64,000 nt of DNA, taken from NCBI GenBank assembly GCA_937129145.1, contig CAKZMU010000015.1, positions 1-64,000 on the forward strand, written 5' to 3'. The DNA is from an uncultured Lacinutrix sp. Lineage in GTDB: Bacteria; Bacteroidota; Bacteroidia; Flavobacteriales; Flavobacteriaceae. The notes below the pieces were generated by a model. The model saw nothing but the letters and a program-made list of their open reading frames with translations. It ran no database searches and was not told the origin of the DNA. Below, one piece after another: positions 24,025-53,491 of the stretch. Numbering within the stretch: position 1 is the first letter of the stretch; each line of letters starts with the position of its first letter. Made by a program: the position numbers and the translations under genes.

Positions 24025-24753
24025 ATGAAAAAAAGCTACTTATTTTTTCTGTTATCCTTTGCATTTTTACACATCAATGCACAAAACAAATGTGAGGATG
24101 CTCATTCTGATGTTATTTATGCTTATTCGCATGTAAAATCGGCTTACGATTCTAACAATATTTCACATCTAAAGGATTATTCCAAACGCTCAACCGATGC
24201 CTTTAATCGAGCAAAAAAAATACTGAATGATTGTGGCTGCAAAGCCTCTTACAATCATGCTTATGATGCTTCAGAATTACTTAGCAAAGTAGAAAATGTA
24301 GAAACTTTTGAAGATGGACGCTTTTATGTAAAACGTGCTCGCGATATTGCAAAAAAAGTGATTAATGAGCTTGAATTATGTACAAAACTAACTCAAGAAG
24401 ATGAAGACCTAGCAAAGTTAGAACGCGATAGGTTAAAGCTTCAACAGCAGCAAATTGAATTAAGTTTAAAAGAACAGAAAATAAAGCAAAAAATGGCAGA
24501 AAAAGAAGCTGCCGAACTGATACTAAAAAAACAGCAACTCATCTCTAAAAACGATTTAGCTTTAACCACCAACCTAGAAAGTTTCAATAAAATTTTAAAT
24601 GCATGTGATTGCGATTTAGAAATGCCTGGAATTAATTATAAAAAAGAAGCATTGTTATCTAAAGACCTTATAGAAATTAAAAAGGAATACTTAACAATAT
24701 TTAAAAGTATGACCAGTAATTATCTAGACAAATTAAATGCATGTAACGATTAA
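24025..24753 (+). CDS. secreted coiled-coil protein with paired cysteines, unknown
   Basis: A signal peptide (ending HINAQ, about residue 19) is followed by helical sequence. Cysteines are paired in short motifs (NKCED, DCGCKAS, ELCTK, ACDCDLE, NACND), suggesting disulphides outside the cytoplasm. Residues ~125-175 form a long charged coiled coil rich in Q, K and E (KLERDRLKLQQQQIELSLK). I do not recognise a family name, though similar proteins are frequent in marine Flavobacteriaceae. It stands alone and ends at a strong terminator. Confidence 0.7.
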   Translation: MKKSYLFFLLSFAFLHINAQNKCEDAHSDVIYAYSHVKSAYDSNNISHLKDYSKRSTDAFNRAKKILNDCGCKASYNHAYDASELLSKVENVETFEDGRFYVKRARDIAKKVINELELCTKLTQEDEDLAKLERDRLKLQQQQIELSLKEQKIKQKMAEKEAAELILKKQQLISKNDLALTTNLESFNKILNACDCDLEMPGINYKKEALLSKDLIEIKKEYLTIFKSMTSNYLDKLNACND

Positions 24754-51034: not shown

Positions 51035-51724
51035 TTATTTTTTGAAGCGAGGTTTTTTTGATTCAACTGGATGAATAATAATATCATGAATTGAATCAAA
51101 AATATCCTCTTCAGAAAAATTTAAACCTGCATCTTTTTTCAACGAACGTTTTAAAAATTTAATCACATTCATATCGTAAAGATATTTACACAAATTTTGG
51201 GGCTCAGAAGCTTGACTTTTTTTCCAGAATTTTTCTAAATCATTATTGATTAAACATTTTCTTGTTAAGTACTCAAAACTACTTAGTGATTTTTTAAACT
51301 CATTGAGTTCAGTTATATTAAAGTGAAATACTTGCTTATAGTCAATAGGTTTAGCAAAAATAACTCTGTATAAGCAAAATTCTCTACCATTTGTTAGCAA
51401 AACCCAATCTATTCCTTCATCAGCACCATAATGAACAGCTTGTCTGATATGCTTATCAGATAAGTCAAGTTCCATAGCTTTAACTTCAACAACCATTCTT
51501 TGCTTCTTATCAATTTGAATTATATAATCTGCATAGGTCCCTCTTATTCTATATTCGGTCTTAATTTCTTCAAGTTCAGCATAACCTAAAACTTCTGTTA
51601 GAAAATAATTAATCATTATTCTAGTTCCAGACTCATCTAGTTTTGCATACTTTTTTGAGATATATTTTCTTCTATAAGTTTTGAAAGAATCTTCAAACTT
51701 TTTTCTTTGAATTGTGGTTAACAT
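51035..51724 (-). CDS. orphan type I restriction HsdR N-terminal-like nuclease domain
   Basis: The 229-residue protein is the PD-(D/E)xK domain found at the N-terminus of type I restriction subunit R. Catalytic residues can be read: Asp66 in TYADYIIQI and the ExK of VVEVKAMELD (Glu80, Lys82), with YGADEGIDWVLLTNGREFCLY as the following strand. No helicase, methylase or specificity gene is near. Stand-alone HSDR_N proteins are common in Bacteroidota with unknown roles. It is convergent with the amidohydrolase gene (one-base gap). Confidence 0.85.
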   Translation of the reverse strand: MLTTIQRKKFEDSFKTYRRKYISKKYAKLDESGTRIMINYFLTEVLGYAELEEIKTEYRIRGTYADYIIQIDKKQRMVVEVKAMELDLSDKHIRQAVHYGADEGIDWVLLTNGREFCLYRVIFAKPIDYKQVFHFNITELNEFKKSLSSFEYLTRKCLINNDLEKFWKKSQASEPQNLCKYLYDMNVIKFLKRSLKKDAGLNFSEEDIFDSIHDIIIHPVESKKPRFKK

Positions 51725-51778: not shown

Positions 51779-52228
51779 TCAAGAATTAATTGGTCGTTTT
51801 ATTGGATTATTTTCAATCACGTCCGATAGAACTATTTGTGTTTTTGTTTCGCCATACGTTATAAGTTGATCTATAAATTGTTCTAGATGTTGTTGGTTTC
51901 TCAATACAACTTCTAGAACAATGTTTTCGTTACCAGTAATTCTAAAACAATTTACGACTTCTTCAAACGACTTTACCTTGACTAAAAAAGGTTTCAATCG
52001 TCCCATAAAGGCTCTTAAAGTGATAATAGCTTTTAATTGATGCCCAGTTTCTTTATATGATAGTTTTGCATAATAGCCATTAATCACGCCTGCATCTTCC
52101 ATTTTCCTAATACGCTCTGCAACAGCTGGAGACGATATACCAACTTTTCTAGCTATATCAGTATTAGATTGTCGTGAATTTTCTTGTAAACACTTTAATA
52201 TATTCCAATTAAGCGAATCTAACTTCAT
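51779..52228 (-). CDS. Lrp/AsnC-family transcriptional regulator
   Basis: An N-terminal helix-turn-helix (NSRQSNTDIARKVGISSPAV, AERIRKMEDAGVI) is followed by the RAM ligand domain (AIITLRAFMGRLKPFL, RITGNENIVLEVVLRN). At 149 residues it is typical. Such proteins sense amino acids and form octameric rings. It is divergent from the small gene at 52345, with 116 bases between and a palindrome near the promoter of that gene. Confidence 0.93.
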   Translation of the reverse strand: MKLDSLNWNILKCLQENSRQSNTDIARKVGISSPAVAERIRKMEDAGVINGYYAKLSYKETGHQLKAIITLRAFMGRLKPFLVKVKSFEEVVNCFRITGNENIVLEVVLRNQQHLEQFIDQLITYGETKTQIVLSDVIENNPIKRPINS

Positions 52229-52344: not shown

Positions 52345-52740
52345 ATGATTTACTCTTCACCATCACACTTAAATAATTTGCCTATTTACACTAAGGCATT
52401 GGAAATCTTTTCGTTAACTCGAAAAATATCACACTATTTGAATTATGATTTATCTAATTTAAAAACTGATGGTACAGAAGACAAACATGTCTATTTTTCT
52501 GGTGATATTGTTCAGCAATCAGAGTTATTAGGACCAGAAATTATTAAAGCTGAAGCTGAAATATATTCAGAAAACAAACATAAGCATGCAGATAGAGTCG
52601 AACGTTTAACCAAATTACTTTATAAAAATTGTAAACGTTTAGAGCAGTGTAATAGTAATGGCAAAGATTTTCTACCAATTTTACGTAGAGAATTAAAAAT
52701 GTTTAGAAAATTACAACGTAATTGGATGTTAACCTTATAA
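52345..52740 (+). CDS. helical protein next to Lrp, unknown
   Basis: A 131-residue, highly charged, mostly helical protein. The sequence is compatible with a four-helix bundle (YTKALEIFSLTRKISHYLNY, VERLTKLLYKNCKRLEQC, RELKMFRKLQRNWM). No membrane segment or signal peptide. It resembles small four-helix proteins related to the 23S rRNA intervening-sequence protein group, but I cannot assign a family. It is divergent from Lrp and convergent with the sigma factor gene (one-base gap). Confidence 0.65.
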   Translation: MIYSSPSHLNNLPIYTKALEIFSLTRKISHYLNYDLSNLKTDGTEDKHVYFSGDIVQQSELLGPEIIKAEAEIYSENKHKHADRVERLTKLLYKNCKRLEQCNSNGKDFLPILRRELKMFRKLQRNWMLTL

Positions 52741-52741
52741 G

Positions 52742-53281
52742 TTAACAACAGACTTTACAATCTTCTTTGTCTTTTACTTCTCCAACCAAATGACCTTTTT
52801 GATTCATTTTAAAATCACAACATTCCATATATCCTTGTGCAATTAGTTTTCTAGCACGTTGAATTCTGGATTTAGTAGTTGGGACTGGTAGTTTTAATTG
52901 ATTAGCCACTTCGGCTTGTTTTTTACCCTTAATATCTGCCAGAAATAATGGGTCACGATACTTTTTAGGAAGTCGTTTTATAATCCCATAAAGACAATCT
53001 TTCTCATCATGTTTTTGAGGTTCTTCTTCTATTTGAATATTGAATTCTTGGAGTTCTGAACTTAATCTATTGGTTCTAAAATAATCCATCATTGTGTTTC
53101 TTGCAATTGAAAACACCCATGACTTAAGTTTTTTTTCATCCTTTAAAGAATCTAACTTAGTATGAATTTTAATAAATGTATCCTGCAAAACATCATTTAC
53201 AACGTCTTCATTTTTTATTCTAGACAAAAGAAATTGCTTAATATCTTGATGATATGTTTTCCAAACTTGATTTGTATTCAT
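52742..53281 (-). CDS. SigZ-like ECF sigma factor with cysteine-rich tail
   Basis: The 179-residue protein has sigma region 2 (DVVNDVLQDTFIKIHTKLDS, KSWVFSIARNTMMDYFRTNR) and region 4 (LPKKYRDPLFLADIKGKK, VPTTKSRIQRARKLI) and fits the SigZ group. Its C-terminal 30 residues contain five cysteines (ECCDF and DCKVCC). I chose the ATG at 53281: a start at 53320 would be encoded by the arms of a perfect hairpin. No anti-sigma gene is adjacent. It follows a cysteine-rich peptide gene in the same direction, and is probably expressed with it. Confidence 0.88.
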   Translation of the reverse strand: MNTNQVWKTYHQDIKQFLLSRIKNEDVVNDVLQDTFIKIHTKLDSLKDEKKLKSWVFSIARNTMMDYFRTNRLSSELQEFNIQIEEEPQKHDEKDCLYGIIKRLPKKYRDPLFLADIKGKKQAEVANQLKLPVPTTKSRIQRARKLIAQGYMECCDFKMNQKGHLVGEVKDKEDCKVCC

Positions 53282-53289
53282 AATATATA

Positions 53290-53320
53290 ATGAGCATTGA
53301 TGAAAAACATCAATGCTCAT
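53290..53320 (-). other. 13-bp perfect intercistronic hairpin before sigZ
   Basis: ATGAGCATTGATG and CATCAATGCTCAT pair perfectly around five bases, between the cysteine-rich peptide gene and the sigma factor gene, ending nine bases before the sigma start. No T-run follows on the minus strand, so it is not a classical terminator. It may protect the peptide message, be an RNase site, or lower translation of the sigma factor. Confidence 0.8.
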
Positions 53321-53333
53321 ATAAAATTAAGGC

Positions 53334-53435
53334 TTAACAATTGCAACCACTACAGTTACATGAGTCGCATGTACAATTTTGGCATTGCCCATTTGTACAG
53401 CTATTACAGTTACAAGTACATTCGTTATTTTTCAT
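53334..53435 (-). CDS. 33-residue cysteine-rich, metallothionein-like peptide
   Basis: The gene is too short for usual gene finders. It starts MKNNECTCNCNSCTNG and runs to SGCNC before TAA. Cysteines are at 6, 8, 10, 13, 18, 21, 23, 26, 28, 31 and 33: 11 of 33 residues, in CxC and CxxC spacing and with Asn, Ser and Thr as other main residues. This is the composition of metallothioneins, though no known bacterial family is matched here. No signal peptide. It is just upstream of the SigZ-like gene (52-base gap with a hairpin) and follows a promoter motif shared with the lipoprotein gene at 53525. Confidence 0.75.
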   Translation of the reverse strand: MKNNECTCNCNSCTNGQCQNCTCDSCNCSGCNC

Positions 53436-53459
53436 GACTTTTGGTTTTATATTACATCT

Positions 53460-53491
53460 ATAAGACGAGAACTTGCTATAAAAGATGCATA
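53460..53491 (-). promoter_or_regulatory. ECF-type promoter candidate before the cysteine-rich peptide
   Basis: On the minus strand TATGCATCT (53491-53483), 15 bases, CGTCTTAT (53467-53460). It lies 25 bases before the peptide start. The same bipartite pattern with the same spacing precedes the lipoprotein gene (53985-53954). CGTC-type -10 elements are typical of ECF sigma factors, and it differs from the housekeeping TAnnTTTG. Confidence 0.55.

Follow-up and report, generated by a model that had tools for sequence, protein, structure and literature searches.

A cysteine-rich peptide gene lies upstream of a SigZ-like sigma factor gene

The window, by which we mean the whole 64,000-nucleotide stretch of Lacinutrix sp. 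DNA that was analysed, contains a 33-codon reading frame followed by a gene for a SigZ-like ECF sigma factor (Table 1). A preliminary description had placed a frame at exactly 53334-53435 without naming a strand; it is encoded on the minus strand, where translation from 53435 to 53334 gives MKNNECTCNCNSCTNGQCQNCTCDSCNCSGCNC, and the plus-strand reading of the same interval contains an internal stop. The minus-strand translation bears out the composition originally reported (33 codons, 11 cysteines in CxC and CxxC spacing, no histidine), and the ECF sigma factor gene said to lie downstream in the same direction is the SigZ-like gene at 53281-52742. We generated 30 replicas of the window with a first-order Markov model; none of their 13,224 ORFs of 20-60 aa exceeded seven cysteines. 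One other small ORF in the real window, at 24441-24542 with seven cysteines, passes a looser cysteine filter, and the only match to the peptide in the window's own genome is the peptide itself.

Table 1. Features of the peptide-sigZ locus and its surroundings (positions in the window).
Feature	Position	Strand	Remarks
ECF-type promoter motif, TGCATCTTTT-N13-GTCTTATA	53459-53489	-	Exact match; ends 23 nt before the peptide ATG
33-aa peptide gene	53334-53435	-	11 Cys, CxCxCx2Cx4Cx2CxCx2CxCx2CxC; no His
Predicted hairpin	53290-53320	-	Perfect 13-bp stem, 5-nt loop; between peptide and sigZ; no clear U-tract
SigZ-like ECF sigma factor, 179 aa	52742-53281	-	NF007215, E 2.9e-53; TIGR02959, E 2e-49
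SigZ C96, sigma2-sigma4 linker Cys	52994-52996	-	91/91 clade rows
SigZ C154-C155, CC ending the sigma4 helix	52817-52822	-	91/91 rows; modelled helix end at 155
SigZ C-terminal CxxC(C) tail: C175, C178, here also C179	52745-52759	-	C175 in 91/91 rows, C178 in 90/91
131-aa protein, no convincing family	52345-52740	+	Convergent with sigZ; relatives in 16 rows (duplicates included)
Lrp/AsnC regulator	51779-52228	-	Near the peptide also in SigZ-less L005, L023 and L176
229-aa protein, type I restriction R-subunit N-terminal domain	51035-51724	-	HSDR_N_2, E 1.9e-8

The best NCBIfam matches of the sigma factor are NF007215 and TIGR02959, both near full length and both below their curated cut-offs; because the TIGR02959 score falls just under its cut-off (167.7 versus 168.65 bits, a near miss), we refer to the protein as SigZ-like, or SigZ for short. 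Its conserved start is the methionine at 53281, and the mechanically assigned ATG at 53320 falls in the hairpin; since relatives start at the equivalent methionine, the gap between the peptide stop and sigZ is 52 nt. The hairpin in this gap has a predicted MFE of -19.0, with a z-score of -10.1 against 30 mononucleotide shuffles. An AlphaFold model of SigZ (pLDDT 83, pTM 0.45) leaves the domain arrangement unfixed, and a Foldseek search with it gave 28 matches at E <=0.001, all of them ECF-type sigma factors. A search of the open-licence literature yielded neither a function nor a regulon for SigZ.

The peptide is conserved beside SigZ in the Flavobacteriaceae

A genome search with SigZ alone returned 68 loci, of which 63 belong to the Flavobacteriaceae and three to Paenibacillus, the other two being distant loci. 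The peptide lies directly upstream of SigZ on the same strand at all 63 Flavobacteriaceae loci and is absent from all five others; the 63 all come from one SigZ clade and are hence dependent events. We also assembled a larger set of 91 loci, defined by distinct SigZ proteins accompanied by the peptide, which includes peptide-seeded loci. Here the spacing CxCxCx2Cx4Cx2CxCx2CxCx2CxC is matched exactly by 90 of 91 peptides, and all 11 cysteines are invariant in each of the 89 distinct core DNA sequences, in which every cysteine column mixes TGT and TGC codons; the peptide of L083, which ends early after its ninth cysteine, falls outside these cores. Some non-cysteine positions are also conserved (G16 and N32), and histidine is rare among the relatives and shows no conservation. 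For the peptide core the median dN/dS is 0.28, and each of the 377 pairs with a dS of 0.05-1 has a ratio below 1.

The preliminary description had proposed in advance that its claim be judged by conservation of the frame beside SigZ and by loss of the frame or of its cysteines in relatives. The first of these came out in favour of the peptide, as the SigZ-seeded loci and the invariant cysteines attest. The second did so for the cores, all 89 of which retain the 11 cysteines, but not everywhere: L005 (genome G088) has lost three of the 11 and has no adjoining SigZ, and the G188 locus (L029/L195) has a stop within the SigZ frame. It is principally the conservation at the SigZ-seeded Flavobacteriaceae loci, together with cysteine invariance, that establishes the reality of the gene; with the Markov replicas, these observations rule out a chance frame, and we are nearly certain that the peptide is a real, conserved gene for which no family model exists. 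That it belongs to a known metallothionein or other known family was rejected, as it has no sequence match in Pfam, NCBIfam or PDB. This result, and the failure to find PF02069 in the window's genome at E <=1, agree with the earlier proposal of a new peptide type.

When 397 genomes of the same family were searched by tblastn, 85 gave peptide matches at E <=1; the weakest matches among them are probably due to chance. A draw across the phylum, in which family members were included, recovered the peptide in five of 395 genomes (E <=0.01), all five from the same family. Within the genus its occurrence is patchy, as it was found in the window's genome (G000) and in G200 and not in G368; like the decayed loci, this counts against the earlier proposal. 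Mobile cargo was ruled out by the lack of tblastn matches at E <=0.01 in 72,556 plasmid records and in 50,697 phage records. A RiPP or bacteriocin precursor was also considered; clustering of the neighbouring genes gives no single partner gene besides SigZ. Neither these clusters nor inspection by eye revealed a metal gene that recurs beside the peptide operons. A search of the open-licence literature found no description of the peptide or of a link between SigZ and metallothioneins, which does not prove that none exists.

Conserved cysteines in SigZ accompany the peptide

We built a tree of 155 SigZ proteins, for which frames shorter than 150 aa (L028, L029 and L195) were excluded and identical proteins merged. 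All 91 peptide-linked rows form one clade (98/94), and because the clade is single, the linkage of peptide and SigZ is an old and stable one and did not arise 91 times over. The clade is sister to one whose members adjoin a 14-Cys peptide, and the SigZ proteins accompanied by a 58-59-aa ORF are placed separately. Within the 91-row clade the lone exception to C178 is L078. Over 162 loci, with duplicates included and the observations dependent, the presence of an upstream peptide and that of a CxxC tail agree at 155 and disagree at seven. SigZ of L150 and L154 has CxxC in its last 25 residues but no peptide. A five-row disagreement set includes L028, whose frame is truncated, and L078, whose tail is unusual, besides L149, L152 and L167. 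Three Paenibacillus SigZ proteins with 35-37% identity keep C96, C154, C155 and C178 invariant in the alignment; they share C96, C154, C155 and the tail cysteine, yet have no peptide, which shows that such cysteines are no specific mark of the peptide as cargo.

A promoter motif is nearly exclusive to the peptide operon

The DNA upstream of the peptide is strikingly conserved among relatives and contains the motif TGCATCTTTT-N13-GTCTNNTA, which is present with a fixed spacer and at most two mismatches at all 91 distinct loci (65 exact, 22 with one mismatch and four with two); two mismatches were reached in only one of 1,820 shuffled upstream sequences. In 86 of 90 scored loci, 20-29 nt separate the end of the motif from the ATG; in L031 the motif lies 111 nt before the ATG. 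In the window's own genome the exact motif occurs only at the peptide operon, and the one additional place at up to one mismatch falls within an open frame of 190 codons on the opposite strand. Across the 397 genomes there are 34 exact matches, 32 at the peptide and two elsewhere (G050 and G287); the reversed motif, used as a control, also gives two. When up to one mismatch was allowed in 20 peptide-bearing genomes, seven places away from the peptide were found versus four for the reversed pattern; as this is near the control, a wider regulon was discounted. Among these genomes, G121 carries the peptide and no motif at this threshold. In the sister clade, whose SigZ genes adjoin 14-Cys peptides, the promoter is a variant that by eye reads roughly TGTATCYTTTT-N12-GTCTACTTANTGAAC. 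These sequence patterns fit a model in which each SigZ reads its own promoter and the peptide operon is approximately the whole regulon, with the use of the motif by SigZ being our deduction.

Other SigZ lineages adjoin other cysteine-rich ORFs or arsenic enzymes

A small cysteine-rich ORF is adjacent on the same strand at 120 of 183 distinct SigZ-like loci, compared with a background of 0.001 per locus; because part of this 183-locus set was peptide-seeded, the 63 of 63 given above is the figure free of bias. In the sister clade, 17 of 18 rows (the exception is L154) have a second peptide family, of 37-45 aa with 14 cysteines in 17 of 17 rows, located 4-50 nt upstream of SigZ (L145, L151, L153, L155, L158-L160, L163, L165-L170 and L172-L174). 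Unrelated cysteine-rich ORFs also occur, upstream of SigZ with lengths of 58-59 aa (L149, L152) and 32 aa (L244), and downstream of it with lengths of 45 aa (L116), 26-27 aa (L236, L239, L245) and 43 aa (L238). A recurrent recruitment of cysteine-rich ORFs beside SigZ, in some cases outside the family, is suggested by these loci, of which the tree covers L149/L152 and L116.

SigZ genes that lack a peptide have other neighbours. Ten proteins, chosen from 69 for a family scan, included ArsI/CadI (E 2.9e-34), ArsM (E 2.4e-97 and 4.6e-102) and PhzF (TIGR00654) over the respective cut-offs, and YpdA/ArsO-like, BshB2-like, rhodanese-like and BASS-type genes below them. Counted as homologues whose start lies no more than 700 nt downstream of SigZ on the same strand, there are ten of ArsI (L118, L122, L171, L226, L228-L231, L233, L234), five of ArsM (L120, L121, L136, L146, L225), 15 of PhzF (L125-L128, L130, L131, L133, L135, L138, L140, L142-L144, L148, L157), and two each of the FAD oxidoreductase, the BshB2-like protein and a DF-family protein; at none of the SigZ loci with one of these genes downstream is there an adjacent cysteine-rich ORF. 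A ten-row SigZ group, five members of which have ArsI or ArsM downstream, has invariant C43, C154 and C175 and no C96. The ArsM-linked pair L120 and L121 keeps C96, so the set of SigZ cysteines is not strictly tied to cargo. The PhzF-linked clade has only C96 and C154, few tail cysteines and no peptide. In congeners (L161, L164; G200, G368) there is a second SigZ-like gene, followed by a YpdA/ArsO-like FAD oxidoreductase that scores below its cut-off, and a similar-looking oxidoreductase was noticed by eye near SigZ at the Paenibacillus loci L093-L095.

Some loci retain the peptide without SigZ

At 12 loci the peptide occurs and tblastn at E <=1 gave no SigZ beside it (L005, L023, L030, L176-L179, L181 and L183-L186). 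Ten of these encode 11 or 12 cysteines, L176 has ten and L005 has eight. The genomes concerned, several of which are incomplete (G059 is a single contig, 99%), match TIGR02959 with E 8.6e-24 at best or not at all, compared with 2e-32 or better for SigZ proper, and none of the 12 loci carries the SigZ-type motif at up to two mismatches. At eight of the 12, a neighbouring gene is homologous to one that borders the operon of the window: L005, L023 and L176 have both the 131-aa gene that is convergent with sigZ in the window and the Lrp-like one, and L005, L177, L178, L181, L185 and L186 have an amidohydrolase homologue. Since these loci keep the peptide, SigZ is not obligatory for it, and the peptide apparently serves a purpose of its own; this argues against a pure leader peptide.

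A proposed metal-responsive operon and its alternatives

We consider it probable that the peptide is a metallothionein-like thiol sink in an autoregulated two-gene operon with a SigZ-like ECF sigma factor whose own cysteines would act as the sensor. By analogy with CorE2, a thiophilic metal or metalloid in the cytoplasm would bind C96, C154, C155, C175 and C178 of SigZ and thereby activate it; a function of SigZ as a metal sensor is plausible on this analogy. Active SigZ would transcribe from the TGCATCTTTT-N13-GTCT promoter ahead of the peptide, to judge from a conserved motif that is nearly exclusive to the operon, and such autoregulation is likely. The peptide would be translated first, and the hairpin before sigZ probably keeps it in excess over the sigma factor. 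Its 11 thiolates would then sequester the ion, removing the signal and closing the loop. The traits expected of a metallothionein are present (it is short, 11 of 33 residues are cysteine, these are clustered as CxC and CxxC, and they are conserved), and a metallothionein-like sink is likely, with metal binding that we infer from the sequence. Since a CC pair distinguishes CorE2 from CorE and the tail contains CxxC, we would hazard a weak guess that favours a soft divalent ion, Cd(II) or Zn(II), over Cu(I) or As(III) as the metal.

The components of this scheme resemble several known systems and differ from each. CorE and CorE2, formerly grouped as ECF44 with the CorE2 type now ECF238, are described as having a cysteine-rich C-terminal domain and a CXC in the linker, both essential for activity, and CorE2 as having a CC pair and responding to Cd and Zn (PMC8999054, PMC9023288). 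SigZ is likewise an ECF factor with a linker cysteine and a cysteine-rich C-terminal extension, but its linker has the single C96 instead of CXC (CC in the sister clade), its tail reads CC-x19-C-x2-C, and the cargo that we propose for it, a peptide, is encoded in its own operon; because the layout matches but the CXC is missing, SigZ may work in a CorE2-like manner without being a CorE. In OrbS, an iron-starvation ECF sigma factor, a C-terminal cysteine cluster is described as the iron sensor, with Fe(II) as the inhibitor (PMC9023288). Control of OrbS by a metal through this cluster provides a precedent for the SigZ tail, although inhibition by Fe(II), the cysteine spacing and the siderophore regulon are different. 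Like SmtA, BmtA and PsdMT (PF02069), the peptide is small and rich in cysteines arranged as CxC and CxxC, and a metal sink is expected here too; it differs in having 33 residues and no histidine, and none of 31 aligned relatives matches the PF02069 profile at E <=10 with HMMER filters applied. The metallothionein PflQ2 MT, reported to form a Cys9His cluster (PMC7387436), has a histidine co-ligand that the peptide of the window does not. Expression of prokaryotic metallothioneins has been proposed to be negatively regulated, with smtA controlled by the SmtB repressor (PMC8790569), whereas we propose positive sigma control for the peptide.

Other functions could be imagined for a cysteine-rich frame in this position. 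With its 11 cysteine codons coming first in the operon, ahead of a hairpin that is predicted to be stable (z <=-2) in 78 of the 81 folded loci with room for one, it might be a cysteine-responsive leader on which ribosome stalling sets termination before sigZ; polycysteine attenuators exist, and a 2020 mycobacterial study by Canestrari, going by its title, reportedly concerns polycysteine short ORFs and attenuation. We nonetheless regard this as very improbable. A stalling sensor has no need for conserved cysteine spacing, a conserved G16 and N32 or a dN/dS of 0.28, the gap of <=10 nt in ten of 91 loci leaves no space for an attenuator hairpin, and the hairpin sequences vary between genera (by eye). 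Furthermore, a polycysteine leader would be retained only alongside the gene that it regulates in cis, and the 12 sigZ-less loci, of which ten encode 11 or 12 cysteines and none has the SigZ-type motif at up to two mismatches, depart from this pattern.

The same 12 loci tell against a peptide that chiefly regulates SigZ, either as an anti-sigma-like protein or as a metal-delivery ligand that docks on the cysteine tail. A regulator of this kind would fit the stable association of the peptide with a single SigZ clade, its occurrence together with the CxxC tail and the near exclusivity of the motif to the operon, but unrelated cysteine-rich ORFs of varied length, on either side, adjoin other SigZ genes, for which a role as cargo is the better fit, and we think regulation of SigZ unlikely as the main function. 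Rather more unlikely still, in our judgement, is that the peptide buffers thiol redox state, or deals with a non-metal electrophile or with disulfide stress, instead of acting as a metallothionein. The weak, below-cut-off YpdA/ArsO, BshB2 and rhodanese matches beside related SigZ genes, and PhzF beside others, point in this direction; against it, sister SigZ genes have ArsI and ArsM, which exceed their cut-offs, as their clearest cargo, and the spacing of CxC and CxxC in the peptide is rigid, as is typical of metal-thiolate clusters. A metallothionein-like sink under SigZ control thus remains the reading that we prefer. As a broader and distinctly tentative proposal, which we hold to be possible though somewhat doubtful, SigZ-type sigma factors may be cytoplasmic sensors of thiophilic metals or metalloids with clade-specific cysteine sets and promoters, each controlling one detoxification module, either arsenic enzymes or metallothionein-like peptides that were recruited several times.

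Few bacterial lineages are known to have metallothioneins. The peptide family described here is conserved, spans many flavobacterial genera and is missing from Pfam and NCBIfam. As the unit consists of two genes and one promoter, heterologous testing and use as a compact metal sensor are possible. If our interpretation is true, the operon would represent a new metallothionein family, with positive sigma feedback as its control logic and a testable function for SigZ; on the broader, tentative proposal, the peptide would be the first prokaryotic metallothionein known under dedicated positive sigma control, and would itself act as the feedback brake.
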